From assembly GCF_937863155.1 (NCBI RefSeq), contig NZ_CALMFB010000070.1, forward strand, positions 62,001 through 126,000: 64,000 nucleotides of DNA, read 5' to 3'. Both the position numbers and the translations under genes were made by a program. Numbering within the stretch: the stretch's first letter is position 1; each line of letters opens with the position of its first letter. The notes under the pieces are model-generated. The model ran no database searches and had not been told where the DNA came from. It worked only from the letters and a program-made list of their open reading frames with translations. Shown piece after piece: positions 46,359-64,000 of this stretch. Origin of the DNA: an uncultured Brevundimonas sp. (GTDB taxonomy: Bacteria; Pseudomonadota; Alphaproteobacteria; Caulobacterales; Caulobacteraceae).

Positions 46359-47239
46359 GCGAACGGCCGCTGCATATCCTGTTCGCGCCGTCCCTGCGCG
46401 AGGGGCCGTGGCGTCAGGCGATCACGGCGGCGGCCCAGGCCAAGGGCCTGAGCGTCGGCGTGTGGGGCGGCGAACCGGCCGATGTGGTCCTGGTCGACCA
46501 CCTGGAGCCGGATCAGCTGGACGGCCTGACGCCGTCCGAATGGGTGGTGCTGGGCGATGCGCCCGAGGCGGGGCTGACCGCCTATGGCGACGCCTATCAG
46601 GAGTTTCCGCCCGCCGCCCACGCCTGGATGGCCGCCAGCAAGCGGCTGGCCATGGCCGCCACCCTGGTGGAGCGCGGCGCGCCGGTGCTGGGCATGCCGG
46701 CCATGGCGCTGGGCCTGCCGCGCCTGGGTCTGGTCAGCCAGACCATCACCGGCATCCCCGAGGACAACGCCGGCCCGACCGCGCCGGTCCTGGCCATGTA
46801 CCAGCGCCTGCCGCCGTTGATGGGCGCGCGCGCGGCCTGGTCGGCCGACCGCTTCAACTATCCGCTGCGGGACGATCCGCTGGGCGGGACGCCGCGGATG
46901 GACCTGACGGGCCGGGCGCGGACGCTGATGTTCGGTCCCTATGTCTGGCTGCCGCCCGGCGCCTGGCGCGCGACGCTGAAGATCATGGTCGATCCCGAAG
47001 GCGGCGAGGTTCCGCTGTGGTTCGACTGGGGCTGTGGCGAAGACGTGGCCACGGTGCGCGAGATGATCGACCAGGCGGGCTTCTACAGCCTGACGCTGGA
47101 TCACGTCTGGACCCGCCCCGGCGCGGCCCAATTGCGTATCGTCCTGAGCCAGGCGGTGTTCCAGGGGCGGATGGAGGTGCTGGACTGCCAGATCGAGCGG
47201 ATCGAACCGCCCGCGCCGGCCGGGGCGGACAGCCTCTAA
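46355..47239 (+). CDS. unknown two-domain protein coupled to capsule exporter
   Basis: A 294-residue protein with no family I recognise. The N-terminal part (LHILFAPSLREGPWRQAITAA, WVVLGDAPEAGLTAYGDAY) looks like a Rossmann-like alpha/beta domain. From about residue 170 a beta-rich domain (MFGPYVWLPPGAWRATLKIM, LWFDWGCGEDVATVREM, GFYSLTLDHVW) resembles a carbohydrate-binding sandwich. No signal peptide or membrane segment is present, so it acts in the cytoplasm. It is translationally coupled to kpsT (ATGA), so it probably handles or checks the polysaccharide before export (inference). It converges on rmlB with a four-base overlap. Confidence 0.78.
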   Translation: MSERPLHILFAPSLREGPWRQAITAAAQAKGLSVGVWGGEPADVVLVDHLEPDQLDGLTPSEWVVLGDAPEAGLTAYGDAYQEFPPAAHAWMAASKRLAMAATLVERGAPVLGMPAMALGLPRLGLVSQTITGIPEDNAGPTAPVLAMYQRLPPLMGARAAWSADRFNYPLRDDPLGGTPRMDLTGRARTLMFGPYVWLPPGAWRATLKIMVDPEGGEVPLWFDWGCGEDVATVREMIDQAGFYSLTLDHVWTRPGAAQLRIVLSQAVFQGRMEVLDCQIERIEPPAPAGADSL

Positions 47240-48294: not shown

Positions 48295-48860
48295 TCCACC
48301 ACCCTCAAGGCCATGGGGACGCCATCATAGGCGAAGGGCGCATCCGCATCGGCCAGCCGGGGCCAGGTCTTATCGCGATCGGACAGCACCGGCGGCCCCG
48401 CGTCGGGCCAGTCGACACCCAGCGCCGGATCATCCCAGGCCAGGCCGCCCTCGGCGACGGGCGCATAGGGGGCCGAAACGCGATAGGCCACCCGCGTCTC
48501 GGGCTTCTGGGTCATGAAGCCGTGGGCGAAGCCGACCGGGACATACAGCTGGTCCCCCGCCTCGGCGTCCAGGGTCACGGTCAGGGCGCGGCCGAAGGTC
48601 GGCGATCCGGCCCGCAGGTCCACCACCACGTCGAAGACGGCGCCGGTGATGCAGCGCACCAGCTTGGCCTGGGCGTGGGGCGACCGCTGGAAATGCAGGC
48701 CGCGCACCGTGCCGGGCGCATGCGACAGGGACAGATTGTCCTGAACAAAGCCGTGGTCCAGCCCCAGGGCCGCCAGCCGGTCGGCCGACCAGCTTTCCTC
48801 GAACCAGCCGCGGGCGTCGGCGAAACGGCGCGCGCGGATCAGGGTGACGCCCCAGCTCAT
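48291..48860 (-). CDS. rmlC: dTDP-4-dehydrorhamnose 3,5-epimerase (RmlC)
   Basis: A 189-residue cupin-like epimerase. FADARGWFEESWS, QDNLSLSHAPGTVRGLHFQ (catalytic His), VVVDLRAGSPTFGR, LYVPVGFAHGFMTQ and VAYRVSAPYAP (Tyr) are the RmlC blocks. It inverts C3 and C5 of the keto-deoxyhexose made by RmlB. The ATG at 48860 fits the family length. The wall-hydrolase gene ends 25 bases upstream on the same strand. Confidence 0.94.
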   Translation of the reverse strand: MSWGVTLIRARRFADARGWFEESWSADRLAALGLDHGFVQDNLSLSHAPGTVRGLHFQRSPHAQAKLVRCITGAVFDVVVDLRAGSPTFGRALTVTLDAEAGDQLYVPVGFAHGFMTQKPETRVAYRVSAPYAPVAEGGLAWDDPALGVDWPDAGPPVLSDRDKTWPRLADADAPFAYDGVPMALRVVE

Positions 48861-50022: not shown

Positions 50023-50646
50023 ATGACCCGTCCGCCCCGCGCCGGATTCTCGCTGATCGAAGCCCTGGTCGTGCTGGCTGTGGGGGGACTGGCGCTGACC
50101 GTCATCTTCTCGATCGGCATGCGGGCGGGCGACGCCGGATTTCGGCTGGGGCGCGGAGCCATGGCGGCGGCGGATCGCGATGTGGCCCTGGGCGACATCC
50201 GCGCCACGGTGCGCAGCATCGCCCTGCGCCCCACATCGGCCTTCCTGCCCCAGATCGACCGCCCCATGGACGGCCAGGCCCAGCGGATGGAGGTCGAGGT
50301 GGTGATGGAGCGGGCCACCCAGTGCGCGCCCCAGGGCTGGAGCGGCCGCCTGGTGCTGGAGATCGCCGACCAGGACGGCGAGCGGGTGCTGACCTGTCGC
50401 GCCGGGAACCGCCCCGTCACGCGGCTGATGACCCTGACGCAGGGGCAGACCGGCTTTTCCTATTCCACCGACGGCCAGGTGTGGACGCCCGCCTACGCCA
50501 ATACGCCGGCGCCGCGCGGCGATGGCCCCGTGCCGCCGCTGAACCTGTGGGTGCGCCTGGCCGGGCCGGGCGTGGACATCGTCGAAATGGCGTCGTCGGG
50601 CCGGGCCGAAATCTGGTATCGAGTGGGCGCCGATGGCGCGCTTTGA
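50023..50646 (+). CDS. gspJ: type II secretion minor pseudopilin GspJ
   Basis: A 207-residue prepilin-like protein. The leader MTRPPRAG is cut before FSLIEALVVLAVGGLALTVI, with Glu13 at +5 of the mature protein. The long mature part (about 199 residues) and position before gspK fit GspJ. It belongs to the tip of the pseudopilus that pushes substrates through the secretin. The gspK start overlaps by 14 bases. I consider GspJ more likely than GspI or GspH because of size. Confidence 0.85.
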   Translation: MTRPPRAGFSLIEALVVLAVGGLALTVIFSIGMRAGDAGFRLGRGAMAAADRDVALGDIRATVRSIALRPTSAFLPQIDRPMDGQAQRMEVEVVMERATQCAPQGWSGRLVLEIADQDGERVLTCRAGNRPVTRLMTLTQGQTGFSYSTDGQVWTPAYANTPAPRGDGPVPPLNLWVRLAGPGVDIVEMASSGRAEIWYRVGADGAL

Positions 50647-51679
50647 GCCGTCCCGCCCCGGGTTCGCCCTGCCCGCCGTTCTGGCGGTGACGGGGATGGT
50701 GACGCTGGTCTTCCTGGTCGCCATCACCGCCCTGGCCAGCCTGCAGGCCGAGGCGCGGTCCGCGCGCGAGCGGGTGCGTTTCCTGCAGCGCGCCATGACC
50801 GCCGAGGCTTCCTTGGCCTATATGATGGCGACCGAGCCGTTCCGCGCCAGCGTCATCCTGGCCGGGGCGCCGCGCAACATGGACGACACCTTCGGGTTGA
50901 ACCTGGCGACACCGGTGGAGTCCGGCGTGCCGGTCAGCGAAATCCGGCTGGACGGGCGGCCCTATCTGATGGACCAGGACGGGCCGATGGTCGTCCGGCT
51001 TCAGGACGCCGCCGGTCTGGTGAACCTGGCCCGCACCACGCCGGATGTGCACCAGCGGCTGGCGACGCTGGCGGGACTGCCCCTGTCCACGGCCCAGGCC
51101 GCCTACGCCCGATATGTCGACTATGTCGATCCCGACGACCTGCGCACCCTGAACGGGGCCGAGCGGCGCGACTATGGCGCGGCGGGCGGGCCGCCCGACC
51201 GGCACATGCTGCGGCCGTCGGAATGGCTGTCTCTGCTGGGCGTGCGCGACGGGGTCGATCCGCGCAAATGGAACGACGTGCGGCACGCCTTCATCGTCGA
51301 GCCGGAGATGATCACCTACAACGTCAACACCGCCCCTGCGATCGCGCTTCAGGCCGTGTTCGACATCAGCGCGGGCCAGGCCGAGAGCGCGATCCGGCGG
51401 CGCGAGGTCACTCCCTTCGCCAGCCTGGAGGAATTTCTTCAGACCGTCGGGTCCACCTTCGTATCCGACCCGATGCGCCTGTACACCTATCCGGGCGGGC
51501 GGGTGATCTATGAGATTCGCGACGGACGCTCGGCCTGGACCTACCGGGGCATGATCGTCCTGACCCCCGGCGGGGTTGTGCAACCGCTGTGGATCACGCA
51601 GACCGAACTGATGGAAGCGCCCCGACGGGCCGCGGCGGACACCACGAATGCGACTCGATTTCCTTACACCCCGTATTGA
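50633..51679 (+). CDS. gspK: type II secretion minor pseudopilin GspK
   Basis: A 348-residue GspK. The leader ends in PG and the hydrophobic stretch FALPAVLAVTGMVTLVFLVA lacks the usual Glu at +5, a GspK hallmark. The SAM-like domain (LQDAAGLVNLARTTPDVHQR, AYARYVDYVDPDDLRTLNGA, YNVNTAPAIALQAVFD) follows. It caps the pseudopilus with GspI and GspJ. Overlaps gspJ by 14 bases and gspL by 32. Confidence 0.93.
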   Translation: MARFEPSRPGFALPAVLAVTGMVTLVFLVAITALASLQAEARSARERVRFLQRAMTAEASLAYMMATEPFRASVILAGAPRNMDDTFGLNLATPVESGVPVSEIRLDGRPYLMDQDGPMVVRLQDAAGLVNLARTTPDVHQRLATLAGLPLSTAQAAYARYVDYVDPDDLRTLNGAERRDYGAAGGPPDRHMLRPSEWLSLLGVRDGVDPRKWNDVRHAFIVEPEMITYNVNTAPAIALQAVFDISAGQAESAIRRREVTPFASLEEFLQTVGSTFVSDPMRLYTYPGGRVIYEIRDGRSAWTYRGMIVLTPGGVVQPLWITQTELMEAPRRAAADTTNATRFPYTPY

Positions 51680-52721
51680 CCGGCTGAGCGCCGATGGCGG
51701 GCTGGAGGCCGTTTACGCCGGCGCGCCCCTGGGGCGGCTGTTCCGCCGTCCGGTGGTTCTGCTTGCGCGCGAACTATGCGCCTTCGGCCTGTTCGAGACG
51801 GCCAATCTGCCGCGCGGGCGCCGGCGCCAGGCGGCGCGGCTGCATGCGCGCACGGCCTCGCCCTATGTCGCGGGCGGCGCGGCCCTGGTGAAGTCGGGCG
51901 AGGATTTCGGCGTCTGGTGGTGGGATCTGGCGCGCGTCGCGCCGATGATCGCCGGGCGCGGCCAGGTCTCGCTGCGGCCCGAAACCCTGGCCCAGCCGGT
52001 CGGGCGGGACTGGCGCATCGTCAAGCTGGCGCGCGGTTATGAGGCCCAGCATTGGCGCGACGGGGGCCTGCGCGCCTCGGCCTGGCGGGCCGCGCGCTAT
52101 GACGACGCCGCCTGGACCGCCTTCGCCCGCACCCAGCGCGACGCGCGGGTCGAGGCGCCGGCCACGCCGCCGCCGGCCGAGAGCCTGCCGGTGGATCGGG
52201 GGGGCGAGGCCTTTTCCCTGGCCCGCGCCGAGATCACGCGCGAGCAGGCGATCGGTCTGGGCCTGGGCGGCCTGGCCCTGGCGTCGGCCAGCCTGTTCGC
52301 CTTGATTCTGGGCCAGTCGATCCAGACCGACAACAAGGCCGCCGAGATCGAGGGCGAGATCGCCGAAATCCAGGCCGCCACGCCCCGCCAGGCCGACACC
52401 CAGGCGCTGGAAGGCGAACGGCGCCGCCTGGCCTCGTTCCGCGAGATCGAAAACCGCACCAGCCCGCTGAGCGCCGCCGGCGCGGCCATCGGCATATTGG
52501 CCATCCACGACCTGACCCCGATCGCGCTGGACGCCCAGGCGGAGACCCTGACCCTGACCCTGCCCTATGAGGCGGTGAAGGTGGCCGGCGATCTGGTGGC
52601 CGAGTTCGAGGGCTCGGGCTATTTCCATCAGGTGGAGCCGCGCACCGACGCGGCCGGTCAGCGCCTGATCATCGAGATGCAGGTTCGCGAGGCGGCGCCA
52701 CCGTTGTCGCCTGACGCATGA
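51648..52721 (+). CDS. gspL: type II secretion inner-membrane protein GspL-like
   Basis: A 357-residue protein with a cytoplasmic N-terminal part, one membrane span near residues 203-222 (AIGLGLGGLALASASLFALI), a coiled coil (AAEIEGEIAEIQAATPRQAD) and a small periplasmic alpha/beta domain. This is the GspL/PilN layout, though sequence identity to classical GspL is low. It should couple GspE to GspM. Its 3' end overlaps the convergent gspH by 53 bases, an unusually long antisense overlap. Confidence 0.75.
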   Translation: MRLDFLTPRIDRLSADGGLEAVYAGAPLGRLFRRPVVLLARELCAFGLFETANLPRGRRRQAARLHARTASPYVAGGAALVKSGEDFGVWWWDLARVAPMIAGRGQVSLRPETLAQPVGRDWRIVKLARGYEAQHWRDGGLRASAWRAARYDDAAWTAFARTQRDARVEAPATPPPAESLPVDRGGEAFSLARAEITREQAIGLGLGGLALASASLFALILGQSIQTDNKAAEIEGEIAEIQAATPRQADTQALEGERRRLASFREIENRTSPLSAAGAAIGILAIHDLTPIALDAQAETLTLTLPYEAVKVAGDLVAEFEGSGYFHQVEPRTDAAGQRLIIEMQVREAAPPLSPDA

Positions 52722-53145
52722 AGCGACAGTCGGCGTCGCTGGAGATCAGCGTCATGACCACCCGGTCGCCGTTCAGCAGATTGGCTGTCGTGGGCGAACA
52801 AGCCCCGCCCGGCGCGATGTCCAGCGCCGGCGCCAGAGTATAGCGCCACGGTTCGCGCAGGGTGACGGTGCGCACGTCGGCGTCGGCCGCCGTCTGTCCG
52901 CCCGCGGCCGGATCGACCAGACGCAGGGCCTGGCCCGTGCGGTTGGCCTCGCGCCGCAGGTCGGACACCTGGCGCTGGAAATCGAAGAAGACGGCGTGGG
53001 ACGTGGCCTGGTCCATCATCCGGCCGGTCGAGGGCATGACGATGGCCGCGGCCATCGCGAAGATGGCCAGGACCACCAGCACCTCCATCAGGGAGAAGCC
53101 GGCGCGCCCGCGGCGTGGATCAGCGCTGCTGTTCCGAGCTGACAT
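52669..53145 (-). CDS. gspH: type II secretion minor pseudopilin GspH
   Basis: A 158-residue pseudopilin. The leader to Gly16 is followed by FSLMEVLVVLAIFAMAAAIV with Glu21 at +5. The mature chain has RMMDQATSHAVFFDFQRQVSDLRREANRT, the GspH amphipathic helix. It starts with ATG 53145 and overlaps gspG by 26 bases, and its tail overlaps gspL on the other strand. Confidence 0.85.
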   Translation of the reverse strand: MSARNSSADPRRGRAGFSLMEVLVVLAIFAMAAAIVMPSTGRMMDQATSHAVFFDFQRQVSDLRREANRTGQALRLVDPAAGGQTAADADVRTVTLREPWRYTLAPALDIAPGGACSPTTANLLNGDRVVMTLISSDADCRFMRQATTVAPPREPASR

Positions 53146-53617
53146 CGGCGTTGACGCCTTCGCCGCCCTCCTGGCCGTCGGCGCCGTAGCTGACGACCGA
53201 GGCCGCACCGCCGCCGGTCAGGCCGCCGGCCGCACCGGCGTCCGCCGGGGGCATATAGACATAGGGGCGCCCCCAGGGGTCGGACGGCAGGGCGTCCATA
53301 TAGGGCCCCTGCCAGCCGGGAACGGTGGTCGCGTCGGCCTGGATCAGCAGGTTCAGCCCTTCCTGCTGGGACGGCAGGCGGCCGATGTCGATGCGCATCG
53401 TCTCCAGCGCGCCCTTGATGGCCTTGGCCTGGATGCGGGCCGCCGTGGTCTTGGACCGATCCAGCTGGGCGAACAGGCGCGGGCCGACCACGGCCGCGAT
53501 CAGGGCGATGATGGCCAGGACGACCAGAATTTCCAACAGGCTGAAGCCCTGGCGCAGCGAACGGCGCGCGGCGGGCCCGGAGGAAGGCTTGCGGCGGTTT
53601 TGGAGACGGAACGTCAA
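53120..53617 (-). CDS. gspG: type II secretion major pseudopilin GspG
   Basis: A 165-residue major pseudopilin. The leader to Gly24 is followed by FSLLEILVVLAIIALIAAVV with Glu29 at +5. The conserved GspG block IKGALETMRIDIGRLPSQQEGLNLL and WQGPYMDALPSDPWGRPYVYMPP follows. The C-terminal tail is Gly/Ala-rich with EGGEGVNAD, the calcium-site region. The TTG at 53617 is preferred because AAGG lies seven bases upstream and no ATG fits before it. gspM is divergent across 116 bases. Confidence 0.93.
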   Translation of the reverse strand: MTFRLQNRRKPSSGPAARRSLRQGFSLLEILVVLAIIALIAAVVGPRLFAQLDRSKTTAARIQAKAIKGALETMRIDIGRLPSQQEGLNLLIQADATTVPGWQGPYMDALPSDPWGRPYVYMPPADAGAAGGLTGGGAASVVSYGADGQEGGEGVNADVSSEQQR

Positions 53618-53733
53618 GGTCTGCCTTGGTAAATCTGTTACGGACGGCTGACGGCTGCTATAGCTCACGGCCGGTTGGCGGTCGAAGAAAAAACGAAACG
53701 CGGGCGCGGGGGCGTGCGGCGGGTGGAGACGAT

Positions 53734-54414
53734 TTGAAAGCGGTTCTGGCGGAACTGAGATCGGCATGGTCGACGCGCACGCGCGCCCTGACCGCCCGTT
53801 TCCAGCGGACGACCCCGCGCGAGCGACTGCTGCTGGCGGCGCTGGCGCTGGGGGTGCTGGTCTATGCGCCCATTCTGGCCATGGAACGCCGCGCCCAGGC
53901 GTCCGACCGCTATATCGACGCGGTGACCGAACGGGCGGCGGCGCGGCTGGCGCTGGATGCGGCGCGGCGGGCCACGGCCGACCCCATCGACCGGGCGATC
54001 TACGAAGACATGCGCAGCTGGGGCATCGAGGCGACCAATGTGCCGACCGCCCAGGTTCTGCTGGAGCGGCGGCTGGTCGAGGCCGTGGCGCGGGCCGAGC
54101 TGGCCAACAGCCAGATCACCACCGAGACCGAGCTGGAGACCATCGGCGCGACCCAGTGGGTGCGCGGCGAGGTTCAGGCCGACCTGCGCTGGACCCCGAC
54201 CTTCGCCTTCCTGGACGCCCTGGCCGCCTGGCCAGAGGGGTTCCGCGTCACCAGCTTCCAGTATGAGACCACGCCGCCGCCGCCGGCCAATCCCGGCATC
54301 CCACCCGAAATCCTGGCCGAGATGATGGCCGGCCGGCCGCAGGGCCGGGTGCGCATCGGCGTGGCCGCCCCGGTGCGGCTGGCGCCCCCATCGACCGAAG
54401 GGGGAGCGTCGTGA
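53734..54414 (+). CDS. gspM: type II secretion protein GspM-like
   Basis: A 226-residue protein with one membrane span (RLLLAALALGVLVYAPILAM) after a basic cytoplasmic N-terminus and a coiled coil (ERAAARLALDAARRA), then a compact periplasmic alpha/beta domain. This matches GspM, the partner of GspL. The start is TTG at 53734, with GGTGGAG at 53722-53728. Its stop overlaps the next gene's GTG (GTGA). Confidence 0.82.
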   Translation: MKAVLAELRSAWSTRTRALTARFQRTTPRERLLLAALALGVLVYAPILAMERRAQASDRYIDAVTERAAARLALDAARRATADPIDRAIYEDMRSWGIEATNVPTAQVLLERRLVEAVARAELANSQITTETELETIGATQWVRGEVQADLRWTPTFAFLDALAAWPEGFRVTSFQYETTPPPPANPGIPPEILAEMMAGRPQGRVRIGVAAPVRLAPPSTEGGAS

Positions 54415-54893
54415 GCCGTCTGTTGCCCTTCCTGCTGGCCGTGCCGGTGATCGCCTTCCTGCTGGGCATGGCGTTCCCGGGCCTGCCCGAAGACCCGCCG
54501 GCCGTGCGCCGGGGCGGAACCGGCGCCCGCGCCGAAATGCTGCGTCCGGGCGAGACCTCGGCCGCGGCCGTGCGCTTCCTTCGCACCCTGCGGTCCGACC
54601 CCCCGCCTCCGCCTCCGCCGCCTCCGCCTCCGCCTCCCCCGCCGCCACCCCCGCCCCCGCCGCCGCCAGACGTGGCGGTGGTGTTCAAAAGCCTGCTGGC
54701 CGGCGTCGAACAGGACGCCGCCACCGGAACCTTGCGCGCCCTGGTCCGCCAGTCCGCCTCTTCCATGCCGCAAATCAACCGCATGGCTGTGGGAGACGCC
54801 TTTGGGGACGGTTGGCGCATAAGTGAAATTTCAGAGACCGCCGTCACACTGCGCAAGGGCCGGGAGGTCCGCGTAGTCCGCCTGTACGGCTGA
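54411..54893 (+). CDS. gspC: type II secretion GspC-like protein with polyproline linker
   Basis: A 160-residue protein. One membrane span (FLLAVPVIAFLLGMAFP) is followed by a run of about 23 prolines (residues 63-87) and a short beta-domain (ALVRQSASSMPQINRMAVGD to EVRVVRLYG) resembling the GspC homology region. Its place between gspM and gspD supports a GspC role joining secretin to platform. No PDZ or coiled-coil domain follows, so it is a minimal version. The start is GTG at 54411. Confidence 0.7.
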   Translation: MSRLLPFLLAVPVIAFLLGMAFPGLPEDPPAVRRGGTGARAEMLRPGETSAAAVRFLRTLRSDPPPPPPPPPPPPPPPPPPPPPPPDVAVVFKSLLAGVEQDAATGTLRALVRQSASSMPQINRMAVGDAFGDGWRISEISETAVTLRKGREVRVVRLYG

Positions 54894-54909: not shown

Positions 54910-57297
54910 ATGATCCAGACGACACCCCGCCGCCTGACGACGACCGCGCTTCGCGGCCTGCGCCGGTGCGCGGCCCTGACGCCGCTGATGCTGGCGGCCG
55001 GCTGCGCCGCCTTTCCGTACATGTCGGCCACCACGACCCGGCCCGACGCCGAGGCCGTGGCCCGCACCCGCGCTTCCGGGTCAGACGCGCCGATCATCGA
55101 CGGTCAGATCGGCGGCGACCGCCGCCCGACCGAGATGCTGACCCTGCCCGGCGGCGCGACTGCGCCCCAGGTGACGCGCCAGCCCGCCACCGAGGCCCAG
55201 ATCGCCGCCCTGCTGCCCGACGAACAGGTGGACGCCGCGCTGGCGCCCCAGTCGATCCCGCAATTCGTGGCCACGGCCTTCGCCGTGATCGGCGCGCCCT
55301 ACACCATGACGCCCGACGTGGCCCAGCGCACCGAGACCATCGCCGGCGGCACCGGCGGCACAGTGTCGAAGAGGGTGCTGTTCCGCATGACCCAGATGGC
55401 GTTGAAGCAGTACGGCATCGACGTCTTCATCGACAACGGCATGGTCACGGTGGGCGAGCCCGCCTCGGCCGCCGCGCCGGGCGCCGCCCAGGTGGTGCGC
55501 GGCCGCGCGCCCACCCCCGCCAGCGGCCGGGTGGTCCAGGTCTTCAACGTCCAGACCATCGAAGTCACGGCGATGCAGACCCTGCTGACCGATCTGTTCC
55601 CCGGCGCGGGCCAGGTGCGGATCACGCCGGACCCCCTGACCAACACCATGATCATCTCCGGTCCCGGCCGCGAAGTGGCCCAGGTGGTGCGGGTGCTGCG
55701 CGAACTGGACCAGCCGCGCTTCGCCGGATCGAACGTCCTGCGGGTCGAGCCGGCCTTCATGGCCGCCGACGCCCTGGCCCAGGCGGTGGAACAGGCGCTG
55801 ACGGTCGAAGGTTTTGTGGTCTCGCGCATGGCCGCCTCGGGCCGGTCGCTGGTGATCCTGTCCTATCCGGCCGCCAACCAGATCCTGATCTTCGCCAAGG
55901 ATCCCGAGCTGGCCGAACGGGCCAACTACTGGGTGTCGATGCTGGATCGCCCCGCCAGCCTGGGCGACAAGGCCTCGACCTTCGTCTTCCAGGTGCGCAA
56001 CACCGACGCCGCCTCTCTGGGCCGGCTGGCCATGGGCCAGTCCGGCGGGTCGTCTTCCCCGCAACCGCCCGTCGGCGTGCCCGGAGCGCCGCCCGCGCAG
56101 GCGGCCGAGGCGGCGCGTAACGCCGCGGCCCGCGCGGGCGGGGGCGCCGGTCAGGCCGGAGGCGACGGCGCCTTCCTGGGCGGACGCATCCTGACCGACA
56201 CGGTCGGCAACCGCATCCTGTTCACCGGCACGGCCAGCGACTACGCCCAGTTGCGCACGCTTCTGACCACCCTGGACGTGCCGGCGCCCCAGGTGGTGAT
56301 CGAGGTGATGATCGCCGAAGTCACCCTGACCGACGACACGGCCCTGGGCATCAATCTGTGGGGCCGCGAGGTGCGCGGCGACGGCACCTGGACCGGCGGC
56401 ACCGAGGGGGTCGAGATCGGCGCCGGCGGGGCCACCTTCAACTTCACCGGCCCGGACATTCGCGCGGCCATCAACGCCTCGGCCTCGAACAACCGCGTCA
56501 ACATCCTGCAGCGGCCGCAGCTGGTCACCCGCAGCGGCGGCACGGCCCGGTTCCAGGTCGGCACCGACGTGCCGATCATCACCTCGCAGCGGGCGACCAA
56601 TTTTTCGTCGGGCGACGAAGGCACCGATGTGCTGCAAAGCGTCCAGTACCGCCAGACCGGCGTCATCATGGAGGTGACGCCCGTCGTCTATGGCGACCGG
56701 GTCGATATCGAGATCAGCCAGGAAATCTCGTCCGCCGGCGCCCCGCCCGCGGGCACCAGCATCGGCAGCCCGACCATCCTGAACCGCAGCCTGACGACCC
56801 AGATCGCCATCACCAACGGCTGGACCGGCGTGCTGGGCGGGCTGATCAGCAACGACTACACCAAGAACAATTCCGGCGTGCCCTTCCTGAAGGACGTGCC
56901 CATCATCGGTTCGGCCTTCCAGGCCAATACGGTGTCGGGCGTGCGCACCGAGATTCTGGTGCTGATCACGCCGCACATCGTGCGCAACGACGAAGACATG
57001 GCCGACCGCGCCGACCGCTATGCGGCCGACATGAACGCGGCCTTCCGCACCGGGGCGGGCTGGTCCTACACCCTGTCGCCGTGGGGCGCGGGGCCGGCGA
57101 TCCGCGGCGTCGGCGTCGATCTGCCCAGCGCCCAGCGCGCCTCGGAACGGCCGCCGCTGATCCCGCGTCGCACGCCGCGCGAGAACGAGGTGGAGCCGCA
57201 GTTGGTCGATCCGGCCGCCGCGCCGCCGACCCTGCCGGTCGAACCCGAGACGCCGGCGCCCACCGTGGTCATGGCCACCCCGCCAGGCCGGCCCTGA
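54910..57297 (+). CDS. gspD: type II secretion secretin GspD
   Basis: A 795-residue secretin. Lipobox AAGC gives Cys32. Secretin N domains run from about 105 to 370, including FNVQTIEVTAMQTLLTDLFP and DPLTNTMIISGPGREVAQVV. A Gly/Ala-rich loop (about 375-420) separates them from the secretin core: EVMIAEVTLTDDTALGINLW, ILQRPQLVTRSGGTARFQVG, VPFLKDVPIIGSAFQA and RTEILVLITPHIV. It forms the outer-membrane channel. The ATG lies 16 bases after gspC. Confidence 0.95.
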   Translation: MIQTTPRRLTTTALRGLRRCAALTPLMLAAGCAAFPYMSATTTRPDAEAVARTRASGSDAPIIDGQIGGDRRPTEMLTLPGGATAPQVTRQPATEAQIAALLPDEQVDAALAPQSIPQFVATAFAVIGAPYTMTPDVAQRTETIAGGTGGTVSKRVLFRMTQMALKQYGIDVFIDNGMVTVGEPASAAAPGAAQVVRGRAPTPASGRVVQVFNVQTIEVTAMQTLLTDLFPGAGQVRITPDPLTNTMIISGPGREVAQVVRVLRELDQPRFAGSNVLRVEPAFMAADALAQAVEQALTVEGFVVSRMAASGRSLVILSYPAANQILIFAKDPELAERANYWVSMLDRPASLGDKASTFVFQVRNTDAASLGRLAMGQSGGSSSPQPPVGVPGAPPAQAAEAARNAAARAGGGAGQAGGDGAFLGGRILTDTVGNRILFTGTASDYAQLRTLLTTLDVPAPQVVIEVMIAEVTLTDDTALGINLWGREVRGDGTWTGGTEGVEIGAGGATFNFTGPDIRAAINASASNNRVNILQRPQLVTRSGGTARFQVGTDVPIITSQRATNFSSGDEGTDVLQSVQYRQTGVIMEVTPVVYGDRVDIEISQEISSAGAPPAGTSIGSPTILNRSLTTQIAITNGWTGVLGGLISNDYTKNNSGVPFLKDVPIIGSAFQANTVSGVRTEILVLITPHIVRNDEDMADRADRYAADMNAAFRTGAGWSYTLSPWGAGPAIRGVGVDLPSAQRASERPPLIPRRTPRENEVEPQLVDPAAAPPTLPVEPETPAPTVVMATPPGRP

Positions 57298-57313: not shown

Positions 57314-57745
57314 TCAGAAACCCAGGCCGGGGATGTCGCTGCTCATGCGGCGCCAGCCCATCCGGTCGAACACCAGCGGCGCGGGCGGCGGCCCGGCGGC
57401 GGGCTGGACGCTGACCGTCATGGTGTAAAGCTGGACCCGGAACGCCCCCTGCCCCATGGGAAAGCCGGTATTGGCGACCTCGTCGCCATGCGGTTCGGCG
57501 ATCCAGCGCACCGTGTCGCCGCCCGGCAGGGCGATGACGCCCTCAGGCTCGGCCATCGGATTGACGGCGCGCGTCAGGGCCAGGGCGTTCTCCTGCTGGG
57601 CCGACTGGGCGATGGCGCGGGCGGCGCGCTGCTGGCCCCGGGCCATCTGAAGCTGCAGCTCGAAGATGGCCAGCAGCGTCACCGAGGCGATGGCCAGGGC
57701 GACCAGGGCCTCGATCAGGCTGAAGCCCGCGCGACGGCGCCGCAT
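57314..57745 (-). CDS. gspI: type II secretion minor pseudopilin GspI
   Basis: A 143-residue pseudopilin: leader MRRRRAG before FSLIEALVALAIASVTLLAI with Glu12 at +5, followed by the amphipathic GQQRAARAIAQSAQQENALAL. GspI fits by size and by linkage to gspF, whose stop overlaps its ATG (TGATG at 57743-57747). It helps start the pseudopilus with GspJ and GspK, encoded 7 kb away. The stop lies in a 13-bp tandem duplication. Confidence 0.85.
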   Translation of the reverse strand: MRRRRAGFSLIEALVALAIASVTLLAIFELQLQMARGQQRAARAIAQSAQQENALALTRAVNPMAEPEGVIALPGGDTVRWIAEPHGDEVANTGFPMGQGAFRVQLYTMTVSVQPAAGPPPAPLVFDRMGWRRMSSDIPGLGF

Positions 57746-58947
57746 CACACGGCGCCCTCGTAGACGCTGGACAGGGCCAGGACCAGCGACAGGGCCACGA
57801 AGCCGACGATCAGCGAGATGAAGGCGATGGCCAGCGGCTCCAATAACGAGGTCAGCCGCTTCATCCGGTCGCGCAGGCGATCTTCGTAATTGTCGGCGAT
57901 GAAGCCGAACATAGCCCCCACCGCGCCCGACTTCTGACCGGCGCGCAGCAGACTGAGATCCATCGCCTCCAGCCGCGTATGCGACGCCAGCGAGGCGTCT
58001 AGGGTGACGCCCGCCCTCAGGTCGCTGTCCAGCATGTCCAGCCCGCGCCGGAACGATCCGATCGGCACCGCCGCCCGCGACAGGGCCATGGCCGACAGAA
58101 TGGGCACGCCGCTGTTCAGGGCGAAGGCCGACAGGCGCGCCCAGGCGGTGATCTCTCGCGCCTGGATCACCGGGCCGATCACCGGCGCGCCGTGGGCGAC
58201 GCCATAGGCGCGGGCGCGCACCTGGGGATTGGTGGCGATCACCACGCCCAGCACGACCAGGGCGGCCAGGGCCAGGCCCACGATCGGCAGATTGGCGTTG
58301 GCGAACTCGCCCGCCGCCAGAACCCACCGCGACACGGCCGGCACATTCTCTCGGTTCTCGCCGATCATGGCCCCGAAACGCGGCACCACCTGGGTGAAGA
58401 TGAAGCCCACCGCGCCGAAGCCCGCGAACAGCAGGAAGGCCGGGTAGGTCATGGCGTTGGTGAAGTCGCGCCGCAGCCGGTCTTCATAGGCCATCTGTTC
58501 GGCCGCCTGACGCAGGACGTCGGCGATCTTGCCCGACGCCTCGCCCACCCGGGCCATGGCGTAGACATAGTCGGGGAAGCCCCGGACATGGCCCTCCATC
58601 GCCGCGCCGAAGGAATCGCCGCGACGCAGGGCGGCGATGGCGGCCTGGAACTGGGCCTTGCCCTTGTTGGCCTGAATGCCCTGGGCCACCGTCTCCATCG
58701 CTTCCAGCAGCGACACCCCGGCCTCGATCATCAGGGCCAGCTGACGCAGCACCAGCACCCGTTCGGCCGGTTTCAGGTCGCGGTCGCTACCCTGGGCCTT
58801 CACCGCCGCCGGGGCGATCTTCAGCACTGTCAGACCATCGGCCGACAGGCGGCGCACGGCCGCCGCCTCGTCCGGCGCGGCGACCTGGCCCTTCATCGTC
58901 AGGCCGTCACGGCCCACGGCCTCGTACTGGAACGGCAGATCGGTCAT
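57745..58947 (-). CDS. gspF: type II secretion inner-membrane platform protein GspF
   Basis: A 400-residue GspF/PilC protein. Two repeats of the T2SSF domain (about 65-190 and 270-395) with RQLALMIEAGVSLLEAMETV, VGEASGKIADVLRQAAEQMA, RLSAFALNSGVPILSAMALS and LRAGQKSGAVGAMFGFIADN, plus three membrane spans. It is the polytopic base that GspE drives. Its start overlaps the glycosyltransferase stop by four bases (58944-58947). Confidence 0.95.
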   Translation of the reverse strand: MTDLPFQYEAVGRDGLTMKGQVAAPDEAAAVRRLSADGLTVLKIAPAAVKAQGSDRDLKPAERVLVLRQLALMIEAGVSLLEAMETVAQGIQANKGKAQFQAAIAALRRGDSFGAAMEGHVRGFPDYVYAMARVGEASGKIADVLRQAAEQMAYEDRLRRDFTNAMTYPAFLLFAGFGAVGFIFTQVVPRFGAMIGENRENVPAVSRWVLAAGEFANANLPIVGLALAALVVLGVVIATNPQVRARAYGVAHGAPVIGPVIQAREITAWARLSAFALNSGVPILSAMALSRAAVPIGSFRRGLDMLDSDLRAGVTLDASLASHTRLEAMDLSLLRAGQKSGAVGAMFGFIADNYEDRLRDRMKRLTSLLEPLAIAFISLIVGFVALSLVLALSSVYEGAV

Positions 58948-59852
58948 GCGGCGGGCGGGAAGAACAGCGGCCTGACGCGGGGATGCGTCACCCGACCATA
59001 CAGGATCGGGGTGCGGTCCGTCCTGACATAGTCGCGGCCGGTCGCGGCGCGGTAATCACGGTGATAGGCGTCGGCCAGCGCCTCTTCCTCGCCCGGCAGG
59101 CGACGGCGGATGCCGCCTTCCTGGGTCGTGGCGCCGTAGTGCAGCTGGTGAAACGTGCCCTCGCCCACCAGCATGACCAGCGGCCCATCGGCGCTGAGAC
59201 GTTCAAAGGCGTCATAGTTGGCGAAACCGCCGCCCAGGGCGCGGAACCCCTCGTTGAACCCGCCCCGCTCCAGGAACCGCGCCCGGTCCATGACGAAGAA
59301 GGTGGTTTCCGGCGGCGAACGGAAGGCGCCCTCAGCATAGCTTTCGCCCAGGGCGCAGATCTCGAACAGGCGATAGCCGTCGGCGGGCCAGCCGATGCCG
59401 GCCAGAAGTCCGTCCTCGACCGCGCGAGTATAGCCTTCGGCGACCGACACCTGCTGCACCTTCGGCCCCAGGTGGAAGCCCAGTGTGGCGACGAAGGCGT
59501 CGGGGTGGACGGCCATGGCCTGAAGCGCACCCTGCACCAGGCCGGGCGAGGCCATGCGGGCGCCGTCCACGGCCACGGCGATCCGTTCGCCCTTGGCCAT
59601 GGCGGCCGCGCGGTTGATGGCGATGCAGGGCGAGGCGCCGCCGTCATCGACCCGCAGGATGGTCACCGGCGCATCGGCGTCGAACCATTCGGCGCGCACC
59701 GGATCGGTCGAGCCGTTGTCGGCCACGATGATCTCGACCTCACCCGGCGCAATCCCGGTCTGATAGGGCGGCAGCAACGACCGTATGGTGCGCGGCAGTT
59801 CACGCGCCATGTCGAAGGCCACCACCACGATGGACAGGCGCGGCCGGGTCAC
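58944..59852 (-). CDS. family 2 glycosyltransferase embedded in T2SS operon
   Basis: A 302-residue GT-A enzyme. LSIVVVAFDMARELPRTIRS and IIVADNGSTDPVRAEWFDAD bind the nucleotide sugar. The usual DxD is replaced by VDGAR (about residues 95-99). The C-terminal half includes DRARFLERGGFNEGFRALGG, as in GT2 enzymes. It has no membrane segment. The start is GTG at 59852, overlapping the sulfotransferase stop (GTGA). It is translated between sulfotransferase and gspF. Its acceptor, possibly a pseudopilin or secreted protein, is not known. Confidence 0.85.
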   Translation of the reverse strand: MTRPRLSIVVVAFDMARELPRTIRSLLPPYQTGIAPGEVEIIVADNGSTDPVRAEWFDADAPVTILRVDDGGASPCIAINRAAAMAKGERIAVAVDGARMASPGLVQGALQAMAVHPDAFVATLGFHLGPKVQQVSVAEGYTRAVEDGLLAGIGWPADGYRLFEICALGESYAEGAFRSPPETTFFVMDRARFLERGGFNEGFRALGGGFANYDAFERLSADGPLVMLVGEGTFHQLHYGATTQEGGIRRRLPGEEEALADAYHRDYRAATGRDYVRTDRTPILYGRVTHPRVRPLFFPPAA

Positions 59853-60541
59853 GCCGCCGCCTCCAGCAGGCGCGCCCACATGGCCGTGGCCTGGGTCGGC
59901 ACCGGTCCCGCGGCCTTCTGGTGCGTCAGTTCGGCCTCGCGGAACGGCATTGGCGCGGTGGCGTCCAGCCCCAGGTCGGCGGCGGCGGCCCGCACGCGCG
60001 CCTCATAATCCGGGGCGTCATAGTCGATGACGGCGAAGGGCGCCCTGTCGCGCCAGGCCAGCATGGCGGCGTTGTATCCGGCCCAGATGGCCACTGAGCG
60101 GTCGGTCTCGAAGCCGTTGCGCGCCGCCAGCGACCCGGCCACCGCCAGCGGATGCCGGAACGAGCCCACCAGCCGCAGATCCGGCAGCACCTCGAACCAG
60201 CCGTCCAGCAGCAGGGTGGCGCGCGGATCCTTGAACCCCCAAGGATGCGGCAGGCCGTCATAGTCGGCCAGAACGGCGCGCAGGGCCGCGATCTCGTCAC
60301 GGGTCCAGGCCACGGGCTCGGCGGGCGGCGCGTCCCAGGCGGCGCCGACGCGGGCCAGGACGGCGTCATGCACCGGCCACAGGCGCGGGTTTTCGCGGTT
60401 GCCCTTCTTGTTGTGCGGGGCGGCGGTGTTCACCTGGCCCAGGGTCAGGCCCAGATCCTGAAGACAGCCCGCCAGGCACGAGGTGCCCGACCGGTGCATG
60501 CCCACGACGGCGATCGGCGCCGCAGCCGGGACGGGACTCAA
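59849..60541 (-). CDS. PAPS-type sulfotransferase-like protein embedded in T2SS operon
   Basis: A 230-residue sulfotransferase-family protein. VVGMHRSGTSCLAGCLQDLG (HRSGTS at 16-21) is the PAPS phosphate-binding loop and GSFRHPLAVAGSLAARNGF (126-138) the 3'-phosphate site. WGFKDPRATLLLD lies between. It transfers sulfate, probably to a sugar or peptide hydroxyl. It is small for the family, lacking any membrane anchor. It overlaps gspE and the glycosyltransferase by four bases each. PAPS would come from cysD-cysNC 25 kb away. Confidence 0.82.
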   Translation of the reverse strand: MSPVPAAAPIAVVGMHRSGTSCLAGCLQDLGLTLGQVNTAAPHNKKGNRENPRLWPVHDAVLARVGAAWDAPPAEPVAWTRDEIAALRAVLADYDGLPHPWGFKDPRATLLLDGWFEVLPDLRLVGSFRHPLAVAGSLAARNGFETDRSVAIWAGYNAAMLAWRDRAPFAVIDYDAPDYEARVRAAAADLGLDATAPMPFREAELTHQKAAGPVPTQATAMWARLLEAAA

Positions 60542-62289
60542 GCCTCGCCTCCGCCGACGATGCGGTGAACCTCGGTCAGGGCCGTCTCGCCGCGCCGGGC
60601 CTTGAGGAAGGCGTCGTCGCCGAAGCTCAGAAAACCGTCCTCGCGCGCAATATCGGTCAGGCGGTCCTCGTCCGCGCCCTGGCGCAGGCCGGCGGTCAGG
60701 GCGGCGGACATGGGCGCGATCTCATAGACGCCGACCCGGCCGCGGAAGCCCGACTGGCCGCATTTGGGACAGCCGACCGGCTCGTGCCAGTTCGCCGGCT
60801 GGCCCTTGACCTGTTTGCGCACAGCCTTGGGCAGATCGGCCTCATGCAGGGCGGCCTCTTCGGGCGTGGAGGGCCGTTTACAATCGACGCACAGGCGCCG
60901 CACCAGCCGCTGGCCCTGGACGCCGCGGATCACGTCGGCCAGCAGATAGTCCTCGATCCCCAGGTCCAGCAGGCGCGGAATGGCCGCCAGGGCCGAGTTG
61001 GTGTGGACCGTCGAAATGACCAGGTGGCCGGTCAGGGCCGCCTGGACGGCGATGCGCGCCGTCTCGGGGTCGCGGATTTCGCCGACCATGATGACATCCG
61101 GGTCCTGGCGCAGGATCGAGCGCAGACCGGCGGCGAAGGTCAGGCCGATTTCGGACCGCACCCGCACCTGGACCACGCCGGGCAGGTCCAGTTCGACCGG
61201 GTCTTCGACCGTGATGATCTTGCGCTGGCCGTCGTTCAGATGGGTCAGCAGGCGATAGATGGTCGTGGTCTTGCCCGAGCCGGTCGGGCCGGTGACCAGC
61301 AGCACGCCGTTCGGCTGTTCCGACAGTTCCAGCAGGCTCTGTTCCTGGGCCGGGGACACCCCCAGTTCGGACAGTTCGGGCAGGCGGCTGGTCTTGCCCA
61401 GCAGGCGCAGGACGATGGATTCGCCCCACGACGCCGGCAGGGTCGAGACACGAAGATCCACCTCCTGGCCCGAGACGCGGATCGACTGGCGGCCGTCCTG
61501 CGGCAGGCGGCGCTCGCCGATATCCATGCCGGACAACAGCTTGATGCGCGAACAGACGGCGTCATAGCTGCTGCGCGGGGCGGTGCGGGCGGTGCTGAGC
61601 ACGCCGTCGATGCGCATACGCACGACGAAGCGGTCCTCGAACGGTTCGACGTGCACGTCCGAAGCGCGGCGCGACAGGGCCTCGGCGAAGACGGCGTTGA
61701 CGAAGTCGATGGTCGGCGCTTCTTGGGCCAGTTCGCGCAGGCGCGCCGCATCGGCGCCGCCGCCCAGGATATCGATATCCAGGCCGCCGCGCCCCTGATG
61801 CAGCAGGTCGCCGGTCAGGCCCTCGATCACCGACCGGGGCGCCAGCAGGAAGGTGACGGGATCGGGCGTGGCCTGGCCGATTCGTTCGGCCAGCAGGGTG
61901 TCCAGCGGCTGGACCGCCGCGCACAGGATCGGGGCGTCCGCCGCATCGCCCGCCCGCCAGGCCACGGCCTCGCGCTCCGCCCACCAGGACACGGGCGAGC
62001 CGATCTGGGCCAGGAAAGCGGCGATGCGGTCGGGCGCGGGCGCGTCCTCGGGCGTCAGCACCGCCAGACCCAGCTGTTCGGACAGCACCTGAAGCAAGTC
62101 CGTCTCGGACAGGGCGCCCAGGCGCACCAGATTCAGCCCGATCAGGCCGCCGTTCTGCGCCTGAAGAGACAGGGCGTTCTGAACGTCGGCCGCCGTGACC
62201 AGTCCACGATCCAGCAACAGTTCGCCCAGCCGCCGACGGTCGGCGGCGGGAAAGCGGATGGCGATCGGATCGGGGGACGGCGCGGTCAT
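60538..62289 (-). CDS. gspE: type II secretion ATPase GspE
   Basis: A 583-residue ATPase. The N-terminal MshEN-like domain runs to about 160, then comes the RecA-like motor: VTGPTGSGKTTTIYRLLTHL (Walker A 334-342), VEDPVELDLPG, DPDVIMVGEIRDPETARIAV (Walker B) and VHTNSALAAIPRL. Two CxxC pairs (467-470 and 507-510) bind zinc. It drives pseudopilus assembly. It is the first gene of the minus operon gspE-sulfotransferase-glycosyltransferase-gspF-gspI. Confidence 0.96.
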   Translation of the reverse strand: MTAPSPDPIAIRFPAADRRRLGELLLDRGLVTAADVQNALSLQAQNGGLIGLNLVRLGALSETDLLQVLSEQLGLAVLTPEDAPAPDRIAAFLAQIGSPVSWWAEREAVAWRAGDAADAPILCAAVQPLDTLLAERIGQATPDPVTFLLAPRSVIEGLTGDLLHQGRGGLDIDILGGGADAARLRELAQEAPTIDFVNAVFAEALSRRASDVHVEPFEDRFVVRMRIDGVLSTARTAPRSSYDAVCSRIKLLSGMDIGERRLPQDGRQSIRVSGQEVDLRVSTLPASWGESIVLRLLGKTSRLPELSELGVSPAQEQSLLELSEQPNGVLLVTGPTGSGKTTTIYRLLTHLNDGQRKIITVEDPVELDLPGVVQVRVRSEIGLTFAAGLRSILRQDPDVIMVGEIRDPETARIAVQAALTGHLVISTVHTNSALAAIPRLLDLGIEDYLLADVIRGVQGQRLVRRLCVDCKRPSTPEEAALHEADLPKAVRKQVKGQPANWHEPVGCPKCGQSGFRGRVGVYEIAPMSAALTAGLRQGADEDRLTDIAREDGFLSFGDDAFLKARRGETALTEVHRIVGGGEA

Positions 62290-62315: not shown

Positions 62316-62585
62316 TCAGCGTTTGGCCGCGACCTCGGGCATCAGGCCATCGACGATGAAACGCATACCGCTGGAATCATGGGCCATGGAGCGCAGAAAG
62401 GCCAGGGTGTTGCCGGCCTGTTCGGCGAAGGTGACGCTGCAGCTGGGCGTGAAGGTGACGTTCTGGAAATTCGGAGCCTGGCCGCCCGAATAGTGCAGGG
62501 CGGCGTTCTCGAACACCACATTGACGTAGGTGTTGCCATCCAGATCGACGCGGCCGGCGACAGTCTGATCCTTGATCTCGGCCAT
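62316..62585 (-). CDS. small conserved-looking protein of unknown function
   Basis: An 89-residue protein. AEIKDQTVAGRVDLDGNTYV opens a beta-rich segment (VVFENAALHYSGGQAPNFQN, TFTPSCSVTFAEQAGN) reminiscent of a short pentapeptide or beta-helix piece, then a helical tail (TLAFLRSMAHDSS). No signal peptide is present. The ATG at 62585 has GGAG eight bases upstream. It precedes gspE by 26 bases on the same strand and may be the operon's first gene. Function unknown. Confidence 0.75.
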   Translation of the reverse strand: MAEIKDQTVAGRVDLDGNTYVNVVFENAALHYSGGQAPNFQNVTFTPSCSVTFAEQAGNTLAFLRSMAHDSSGMRFIVDGLMPEVAAKR

Positions 62586-62773: not shown

Positions 62774-64000
62774 TTACGGCACGTAGACGATGCCGGCGCC
62801 GGTGCCGACCGATTGGTCGTTGGCGACGGTGCCGCTTTCGAACTCGGTGACCGAGCCGTTGGCCAGGGTGGCGTAACGACGGGCCGTGATCTGCTCCGGA
62901 CGGGCTTCGATCGAGATCTGCACGTCGCCGCGGCCGAAGTCACCCAGTTCGGTGGTCAGCAGGGCGGTGTTGATCACGCGCTCGCCGTTGGCGGCGATGC
63001 TCGGGAACAGTTGCTTCGGCGCCGTCAGGGCGACGTAGCTGCCACCTTGCAGGGTCGGCTGGTTGTTCAGAACTTGGCCATAGACGGCGCCCGTGGTCGA
63101 AGCGCTGACGTTGCCCAGACGGATCAGGTTGGTCGAACCGTTGGCGTTCTGGATGGCGGTCGAGTTCATCCACGGGAAGATGATGTTGGTGCCATCACGC
63201 TCGATCGGCTCCAGGGCGCGGTTGGCCGCGGTTTCCTGGTTGTACTTCGTCGCATCCAGTTCGTAGGCGACAGCGATTTCGTAGGCCGAGGCCGGGATCG
63301 CAGCCGTACCCGTCTTGGTGACGGTGAACTCGTTGGCGGCGGTCAGGGTCAGACCACCCTTCACTTCCACGACGCCCGCCTGGATGTTGGCGTGGGTCGA
63401 GGTCGTGCGGCCGGTGTTGTAGGCGCTGGCCACACCACCGAAGGCGGTGTTCAGGGTCGAGAAGTTGCCGGTGACGACAGCATCGACGTCCAGGACGTCG
63501 GTGGCGGCGACCACGGCGTTGGTGCGCAGCAGGCCGTACTTGGCGGTTTCATCGACGATCAGAGCGGCCGTACCCAGGACGCCGACAGTGCCGGTTTCCG
63601 GAGCAGCGGTGTGGAAGCCCGCGGCGGTCTTGAAGGTGGTGTAGACCGGGGTCACGTCCAGGGTGGCGACGGTGTTGCCGTAGGCGCCGGTGCCCAGGGT
63701 GCGCGGAGCGACGATCGAGGCATCGACGGTCCAGGCGAAGGCGTCCGGACGGCTGATGATGACCTTGGTGCCCGAGAAACCGTTGTCGATCGGGGTCAGA
63801 GCGCCGTCGGTCACCAGGTTGGTGCGGACGCTGACGTCGCCGGCGCCGGTGACGCGGATCGGCAGATCCATGTTGAAGCTGGCGCAGTTGGCGGCCGAGT
63901 TCGACACGATGAACACAGCCGTCTTGGCCGTCGGGGTGGTCGACGGAGCGGCGGTGAAGGTGGTGCAGCCGGCGCCCGGCAGCACGTTGGCGGCCGTCGG
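62774..64000 (-). CDS. large secreted or surface structural protein, C-terminal part
   Basis: The frame stays open to the window edge, so only the last 408 residues are visible. Its sequence is rich in Thr, Ala, Val, Asn and Gly and low in charge, with repeating strand-turn patterns (KVIISRPDAFAWTVDASIVA, GGLTLTAANEFTVTKTG, NLIRLGNVSASTTGAVYGQV, GDFGRGDVQISIEARPEQIT). There are very few cysteines. This is typical of exported beta-rich cell-surface or S-layer-like proteins. No family was named with confidence. Its place beside the T2SS genes hints that it may be a substrate (inference). A strong terminator follows. Confidence 0.75.
   Translation of the reverse strand, partial: PTAANVLPGAGCTTFTAAPSTTPTAKTAVFIVSNSAANCASFNMDLPIRVTGAGDVSVRTNLVTDGALTPIDNGFSGTKVIISRPDAFAWTVDASIVAPRTLGTGAYGNTVATLDVTPVYTTFKTAAGFHTAAPETGTVGVLGTAALIVDETAKYGLLRTNAVVAATDVLDVDAVVTGNFSTLNTAFGGVASAYNTGRTTSTHANIQAGVVEVKGGLTLTAANEFTVTKTGTAAIPASAYEIAVAYELDATKYNQETAANRALEPIERDGTNIIFPWMNSTAIQNANGSTNLIRLGNVSASTTGAVYGQVLNNQPTLQGGSYVALTAPKQLFPSIAANGERVINTALLTTELGDFGRGDVQISIEARPEQITARRYATLANGSVTEFESGTVANDQSVGTGAGIVYVP

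Follow-up and report, generated by a model that had tools for sequence, protein, structure and literature searches.

Why should genes for a sulfotransferase and a glycosyltransferase lie inside the operon of a type II secretion system (T2SS)? The question is raised by a 64,000-nucleotide stretch of DNA from an uncultured Brevundimonas sp. (contig NZ_CALMFB010000070.1, positions 62,001 to 126,000; the whole stretch is hereafter the window), in which gspE, a gene for a sulfotransferase-family protein (ST), a gene for a GT2 glycosyltransferase (GT2), gspF and gspI form a single minus-strand run. An earlier note on this DNA had taken the tight gene overlaps as a sign of co-evolved stoichiometry, and had proposed that a T2SS component or a secreted substrate is glycosylated and sulfated. 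We found that the two genes occupy an exchangeable position in the operon and that the T2SS lies among surface-polysaccharide genes. With moderate confidence, we lean towards a T2SS of the surface-layer (S-layer) type within a polysaccharide locus, ST and GT2 being surface-glycan tailoring enzymes that have been kept in the operon.

The gene run and the slot between gspE and gspF

The coordinates, families and 1-4-base overlaps that had been described for the run were confirmed by open reading frame and Pfam checks. The T2SS ATPase gene, gspE (60538..62289), encodes a protein with an MshEN-like N-terminal domain (PF00437, 419 bits; cyclic di-GMP (c-di-GMP) domain NF053729, 52.1 bits against a cut-off of 38; TIGR02533, 507.6 bits). 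It is followed by ST (59849..60541; TTG start; PF13469, Sulfotransfer_3, 29.1 bits against a cut-off of 27), GT2 (58944..59852; GTG start; PF00535, 33.3 bits against 23.3), gspF for the inner-membrane platform protein (57745..58947; PF00482, 137.9 bits) and a gspI-type minor pseudopilin gene (57314..57745), assigned from its N-methylation motif (PF07963) and position. Overlaps of 4 bp were present at gspE/ST (TTGA), ST/GT2 (GTGA) and GT2/gspF (ATGA), while gspF and gspI overlap by 1 bp (TGATG), or by 4 bp if a GTG start is used. The run starts upstream of gspE: on the same strand, the gene for a 506-amino-acid putative secreted protein (62774..64000, cut by the window end; whole gene at L075:5775-7295) comes first, followed by a small conserved gene of 89 codons (62316..62585, start inferred), homologues of which occupy the corresponding position in other loci.

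The overlaps themselves carry little information. In a hand-edited gene list, from which 7 gene calls were dropped as shadows or replaced and to which 5 genes were added, an overlap of 1 or 4 bp is possible at 12 of the 24 same-strand junctions shorter than 60 bp, and at 8 of 20 besides the run's own four. Because such overlaps are ordinary in the window, their tightness is uninformative, and we rejected overlap length as evidence of coupling; the co-evolved stoichiometry that had been read from it is not supported.

To what extent the arrangement recurs was assessed in a draw of 121 Brevundimonas genomes, including the window genome (G000). A gspF at least 62% identical was found in 15 of them, the next matches being below 30%. 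Five genomes, that of the window among them, have an orthologous GT2 (62-68% identity), and these five also have an orthologous ST (72-77%); GT2 matches of 30-32% identity in G042 and G047 were excluded from this count. All five fall within the 15 T2SS genomes (Fisher p=1.5e-5), so that ST-GT2 is linked to this T2SS above chance. The slot between gspE and gspF contains exactly ST-GT2 in three of the 15 (G000, G069, G055), a methyltransferase (MT) gene followed by ST-GT2 in one (G067, B. lutea) and MT alone in six (G015, G049, G022, G115, G117, G054). It is empty in the other five (G034, G005, G043, G059, G102), one of which, B. huaxiensis (G102), carries the pair directly upstream of gspE, in the order secreted protein-ST-GT2-gspE-gspF. 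B. variabilis (G317), from a family-level draw, has the same slot order as the window, and a Maricaulis metagenome-assembled genome (MAG) from another family of the order (L128; L224 in an order-level draw) reads gspE-ST-GT2-MT-gspF. Uniqueness to this strain, which the earlier note had named as the outcome fatal to its proposal, is thereby refuted. In the six genus genomes that carry ST-GT2 pairs in the genus and family draws, all pairs lie within the T2SS locus.

The slot contents have been exchanged between close relatives. In a gspE plus gspF tree of 14 of the 15 T2SS genomes, B. variabilis and the Maricaulis MAG (G054, whose gspE is cut by a contig end, was omitted), sister genomes differ in their slots in G000/G015, G069/G043, G317/G034 and G102/G049 (supports 94, 100, 97 and 100, respectively), and in the junction DNA the exchanges are clean and coincide with gene ends. 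The gspE proteins of the genus share 65-93% identity with that of the window, and relatives with 76-93% identical gspE carry MT or nothing in the slot; together with the position of the pair upstream of gspE in B. huaxiensis, this also argues against co-evolved stoichiometry. Thus, ST and GT2 are not parts of the T2SS, since the slot is exchangeable and sister genomes differ in it. Clean inheritance of ST-GT2 with gspE and gspF could not be shown, the support in the ST plus GT2 tree being weak (47-73); the B. lutea ST is 68-75% identical to the others, which are 69-78% identical among themselves, although the B. lutea gspE and gspF are the most distant. The idea that slot content tracks the secreted protein was likewise unsupported, as the secreted proteins of G000 and G015 are 74% identical and their slots differ.

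Three further observations concern these genomes. The window genome encodes a homologue of the slot MT (L075:7863-8516), upstream of the secreted-protein gene and divergent from it; this protein shares 57% identity with a counterpart in B. huaxiensis and 39-42% with the genus slot MTs. Contig 1 of G069 (2.97 Mb) bears the same T2SS locus at both ends (L077; L078-L079), with gspK and a cell-wall hydrolase gene broken in the second copy, which suggests a circular assembly that was left unclosed and contains errors. The window assembly has no Ribosomal_L2_N match despite a listed completeness of 99.58%, and absences from G000 therefore need care.

The enzymes, the polysaccharide genes and the supply of sulfate

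The PF13469 match of the window ST is modest, yet 24 of 25 aligned ST proteins match this family, and the motifs GMHRSGTS, which we take to be the P-loop, and R-P-S are invariant. ST has no NCBIfam match; its best profile match in the PDB is 2z6v (E=0.0014), titled uncharacterized, and protein-tyrosine sulfotransferases match weakly (E 0.13-0.19). GT2 matches chondroitin synthase (2z87, E=1e-6). GT2 glycosyltransferases are expected to carry a metal-binding DXD motif. At this position, DGA[R/H] rather than DXD is found in the aligned segments of 111 of 114 relatives, and this conservation therefore indicates a variant subfamily and not decay. Neither protein contains a strongly hydrophobic stretch, so by hydropathy both look cytosolic. 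We infer that ST is a sulfotransferase using 3'-phosphoadenosine 5'-phosphosulfate (PAPS) and that GT2 is a glycosyltransferase, both as predicted activities.

Genes that could provide an acceptor and a sulfate donor surround the T2SS. On one side, named from sequence reading and in conserved synteny, are rmlB- and rmlC-like genes of dTDP-rhamnose synthesis (47236..48860, minus strand); rmlA- and rmlD-like genes, also named by reading, lie on the other side (L075:8513-10284). An ATP-binding cassette (ABC) polysaccharide exporter with KpsM-, KpsE- and KpsT-like proteins is encoded at 43648..46358 on the plus strand (PF01061, 27 bits against 26.9; PF00005 above its cut-off), the KpsE-like protein having weak matches only (Wzz, E=0.035). 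Next to it is a nonulosonate cluster of the sialic or legionaminic acid type (38466..43524) with neuB, neuC, neuA, a dehydratase gene and a gene for a CBS-nucleotidyltransferase (PF03102, PF02350, PF02348, PF16363, PF00483). Finally, a cysD-like gene, with its start inferred and its name from reading, and cysNC (PF01583, PF00009) occupy 33879..36634 on the plus strand; cysNC (34802-36634) is the only adenylylsulfate (APS) kinase match in the genome assembly, and the two products would make PAPS.

These associations hold in part across the genus draw. An ST homologue is present in 15 of 15 T2SS genomes, as compared to 10 of the 106 without this T2SS (Fisher p=6e-13), and 12 of the 15 have a second ST match, outside the slot, within 30 kb of gspF. 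In five of the ten ST-bearing genomes without this T2SS, an ST match lies 16-29 kb from the KpsM-like gene. The 13 T2SS genomes with a KpsM-like gene also have cysNC. In G043, G055 and G069, cysNC shares the strand of the KpsM-like gene and is separated from it by 96-310 bp; in G000, G015 and G049 the distance is no more than 11 kb. A link between the exporter locus and PAPS supply is thus seen in some of the genomes, cysNC being near the KpsM-like gene in six of 13.

Beyond the genus, the pair occurs both with and without a T2SS. The family draw gave GT2 matches (E<=1e-15) in 14 of 299 genomes, eight of them outside the genus. Two of these eight, G121 and G180, have ST-GT2 with a match to the secreted-protein gene nearby, in G121 also within a T2SS locus, the stretch of G180 being too short to judge; in the other six (G154, G186, G127, G251, G146, G129; GT2 37-43% identical) no T2SS or ST match was found in the fetched stretch. 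The order draw gave GT2 matches (E<=1e-30) in 25 of 398 genomes, 21 outside the genus, of which 20 loci were taken in and G489 was left out. At least one gsp match is present in seven of these 20, in arrangements such as ST-GT2-gspF-gspG (L225) and gspE-ST (L227); the only gsp match of L237 is to a secretin. A named scan of the best 80 of 131 relatives, corresponding to 79 loci, revealed T2SS matches in eight, though in one of these (L138) the match is to a secretin alone, at 28%. In 28 of the 79 loci, ST and a GT2 are no more than 200 bp apart, on either strand; 21 of these 28 show no T2SS match, and nine of the 21 contain a KpsT-like ATPase gene. A MAG labelled Planctomycetota (L120) has a pair 57/59% identical to that of the window and no T2SS match. 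Similarly, in ABC-exporter polysaccharide clusters with the order ST-GT2-GT2, for example in Pseudomonas (L162, L163, L169, L175, L184, L194), the ST is 41-48% and the GT2 38-40% identical to those of the window and the genes adjoin a KpsT-like ATPase gene; L163 and L175 also contain an APS-kinase match. Unlike the window, these stretches contain no T2SS match. From this distribution, ST-GT2 looks like an old polysaccharide module that has been repeatedly drawn into T2SS loci of the order.

Two loci from the named scan deserve separate mention. In a T2SS locus of Parvularculaceae (L153:6193-10873), a secreted-protein gene and a sulfotransferase gene of another Pfam family (PF03567) are found near GT2, possibly an independent version of the same coupling; L241 of the order draw has a contig of equal length. 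A Pseudomonadales locus (L138:34-10945) combines the secretin match with a 483-amino-acid protein bearing a likely signal peptide, a methyltransferase, GT2 and another glycosyltransferase, which carries a Sulfotransfer_3-like domain (23.9 bits, under the cut-off of 27); the locus may be another one of S-layer type.

The secreted protein, the secretion genes and known S-layer loci

A profile of the secreted protein matched exactly the 15 T2SS genomes and none of the other 106. Since sequences from 13 of these 15 had gone into the profile, the informative part is its match in G034 and G054 and the zero in 106. In a phylum draw it matched one of 398 genomes, the window genome alone. The 16 aligned homologues have 451-507 residues, are 22-74% identical to the window protein and contain 17-26% Ser plus Thr; no Pfam or NCBIfam family was matched. 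A size of about 50 kDa, a signal peptide (by eye and hydropathy), a gene beside the T2SS and co-occurrence with it are the features of S-layer proteins of the VapA, Slr4 and NpdA kind. In six of eight relatives, the gene ranks first to third among its neighbors in codon adaptation to ribosomal genes. An abundant coat protein would fit the codon usage in most, not all, of these genomes, and we infer from its gene context that this protein is exported by the T2SS and makes up a putative S-layer-like coat.

The closest parallel appears to be the S-layer T2SS of Aeromonas, which is nested in an ABC-2 O-antigen cluster. According to the available part of the report on A. salmonicida, the T2SS genes spsE-L and vapA are inserted in the wb O-antigen cluster together with rmlB, Wzm, Wzt and glycosyltransferase genes, and the same region contains ORF19, with a sulfotransferase domain and a role described as not known (PMC4483657). 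The S-layer T2SS cluster of A. hydrophila AH-1 is similar, and the word sulfotransferase does not occur in the available portion of that text (PMC4413209). As in Aeromonas (spsE-L, spsD, vapA), the window genome has a T2SS and the gene for a putative surface protein of about 50 kDa between rhamnose and ABC-2 O-antigen-type genes. The likeness is one of locus anatomy. In contrast to the window, the Aeromonas source as far as available has spsE and spsF consecutive and ORF19 outside the T2SS block, whereas here the junction of gspE and gspF accommodates ST, GT2 or MT, depending on the species.

Two other S-layer proteins with signal peptides, as far as the accessible parts of the sources go, are likewise encoded beside or linked to a T2SS: Slr4 of Pseudoalteromonas tunicata (PMC7821379), and NpdA of Paracidovorax citrulli, of 52 kDa and without conserved domains (PMC10765051). 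They belong to different taxa, and the terms glycosyltransferase and sulfotransferase are absent from the accessible NpdA text, as is 'glycosyl' from that on Slr4. Caulobacter RsaA, from the same bacterial order as the window, forms an S-layer on lipopolysaccharide but is exported by type I secretion. Among the matches listed in the open-access literature, none described a T2SS operon with a sulfotransferase or GT2 gene within it, which does not prove absence. To an anatomy that is that of known Aeromonas S-layer loci, the window adds the exchangeable tailoring slot in the T2SS operon.

The remaining gsp genes adjoin the five-gene run in divergent groups. On the plus strand are the gspD secretin gene (54910..57297; PF00263, PF03958; TIGR02517), gspC-like (54411..54893), gspM-like (53626..54414; no Pfam or NCBIfam family) and gspL-like (51648..52721; no Pfam family), the last three assigned from position and conservation, and gspK-like (50633..51679) and the gspJ-like pseudopilin gene (50023..50646), for which sequence reading was also used. 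The minus strand bears gspG for the major pseudopilin (53120..53767; PF08334, 99.4 bits) and a gspH-type pseudopilin gene (52669..53208; PF07963); the called starts of gspM-like, gspG and gspH are probably too far upstream. GspE, GspF, GspD and GspG are above the Pfam cut-offs of core T2SS families (PF00437, PF00482, PF00263, PF08334). For GspE and GspD, the NCBIfam equivalogs TIGR02533 (507.6 bits, cut-off 630) and TIGR02517 (288.8 bits, cut-off 351) are the best matches yet fall below their cut-offs, and the T2SS is therefore divergent. The gspC-like protein contains a run of more than 20 prolines. By eye, the MshEN-type domain of GspE has a nearly complete motif I and a motif II without its Arg, as judged from the motif in the available part of PMC5013675; control of this T2SS by c-di-GMP is possible but uncertain. 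Several loci have a homologue of the small gene, 38-76% identical, in the interval from the secreted-protein gene to gspE (L075:5317-5586 in the window genome), and the window gene matched no Pfam family. A Caulobacter secreted pentapeptide protein, from the part of PMC12864828 available, was considered for it and led nowhere.

What the putative tailoring enzymes may act on

The arrangement would be accounted for if a T2SS dedicated to one S-layer-like surface protein were nested in a surface-polysaccharide locus. GT2 would add a sugar to, and ST would sulfate, a polysaccharide built in the cytosol, MT being likewise a tailoring enzyme in the relatives, and the KpsM/T-type ABC transporter would export the product. 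ST and GT2 (or MT) would be co-translated with the genes for the T2SS ATPase and platform protein, and, because of this presumed co-translation, coat protein and modified glycan would be made together, the glycan probably serving as the bed to which the coat adheres. The contents of the slot (ST-GT2, MT, MT-ST-GT2 or nothing) would be swapped much as O-antigen genes are.

Several observations weigh against this explanation. KpsM-like genes occur in 74 of the 121 genomes, most of which lack this T2SS, and in 13 of the 15 with it; none was matched at E<=1e-40 in B. lutea (G067), which has the pair, or in G005 (66% complete). Because the KpsM-like gene is widespread and is unmatched in B. lutea, the ST-GT2 pair and the exporter are not strictly tied. 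In seven of the 13 genomes with both genes, cysNC is far from the KpsM-like gene or on another contig, and it lies within about 31 kb of gspF in only five of 16 genomes. The secreted protein has no PDB match, that is, no detected relative of known structure. Its homology to candidate coat proteins of two other T2SS loci could not be shown by hhalign (E 0.028, probability 1.8%; E 0.21, probability 0.3%). In two of the eight relatives, its gene ranks only 14th of 19 and 15th of 23 in codon adaptation, and in the window genome 9th of 51, with a relative's reference used. Moreover, in the available part of the A. salmonicida report, the O-antigen is described as having no sulfate despite ORF19 (PMC4483657).

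The earlier note had placed the modification on protein, and a secretion-coupled version of this, in which GT2 and ST (and MT) attach sugar and sulfate to the secreted protein or to a part of the T2SS, yielding, for example, a sulfated S-layer glycoprotein, we regard as unlikely. It is consistent with the position of ST-GT2, which in B. huaxiensis and MAG G180 adjoin the secreted-protein gene and in other genomes lie within the T2SS operon, with the Ser and Thr content of the secreted proteins and with the PF03567 sulfotransferase gene of the Parvularculaceae locus. T2SS substrates with signal peptides first cross the inner membrane through Sec or Tat. For such substrates, the apparently cytosolic location of both enzymes counts against modification of the secreted protein, as do the MT in the slot of the closest relative, G015, in spite of its similar secreted protein, and the 21 adjacent pairs in loci without a T2SS match. 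The secreted protein may be a target, but a surface polysaccharide produced by the neighboring genes is the likelier one. The other target named in the earlier note, a pseudopilin or the secretin, gained no support and was rejected as the main explanation, as 11 of the 15 T2SS lack the pair in the slot and 10 lack the orthologous pair altogether.

Alternatively, the polysaccharide locus may be variable and the gspE-gspF junction a site at which insertions are tolerated, the inserted genes having no functional tie to secretion. Differing slots in sister genomes, clean junctions at gene ends and the nesting of the entire T2SS among polysaccharide genes would all be expected from such hitch-hiking. 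We nevertheless consider it doubtful, since the same kinds of genes occur near the T2SS in other families in varied orders (gspE-ST-GT2-MT-gspF, ST-GT2-gspF, gspE-ST), with at least one gsp match in seven of the 20 order loci outside the genus, and since every pair of the six genus genomes is in the T2SS locus.

Should tailoring of a surface glycan by ST and GT2 be borne out, the making of a coat would be linked to the making of its sugar bed. About one-eighth of the sampled genus genomes (15 of 121) would then carry a T2SS-based coat system that would be missed by a survey keyed to rsaADEF, the genes by which S-layer potential in Caulobacterales was judged in 2025, according to the available part of that survey (PMC12700997). 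Sister genomes with different glycan cassettes would provide natural experiments on the recognition of S-layer glycan anchors in Gram-negative bacteria. More tentatively, and on the speculative side of what the loci suggest, the T2SS-secreted layer might dock on, or itself carry, a sulfated and methylated glycan whose chemistry depends on the slot cassette (ST-GT2, MT, both or none), which would amount to an exchangeable sugar code. If so, Caulobacterales would have a further S-layer route besides RsaA, with serotype-like switching of the layer anchor.

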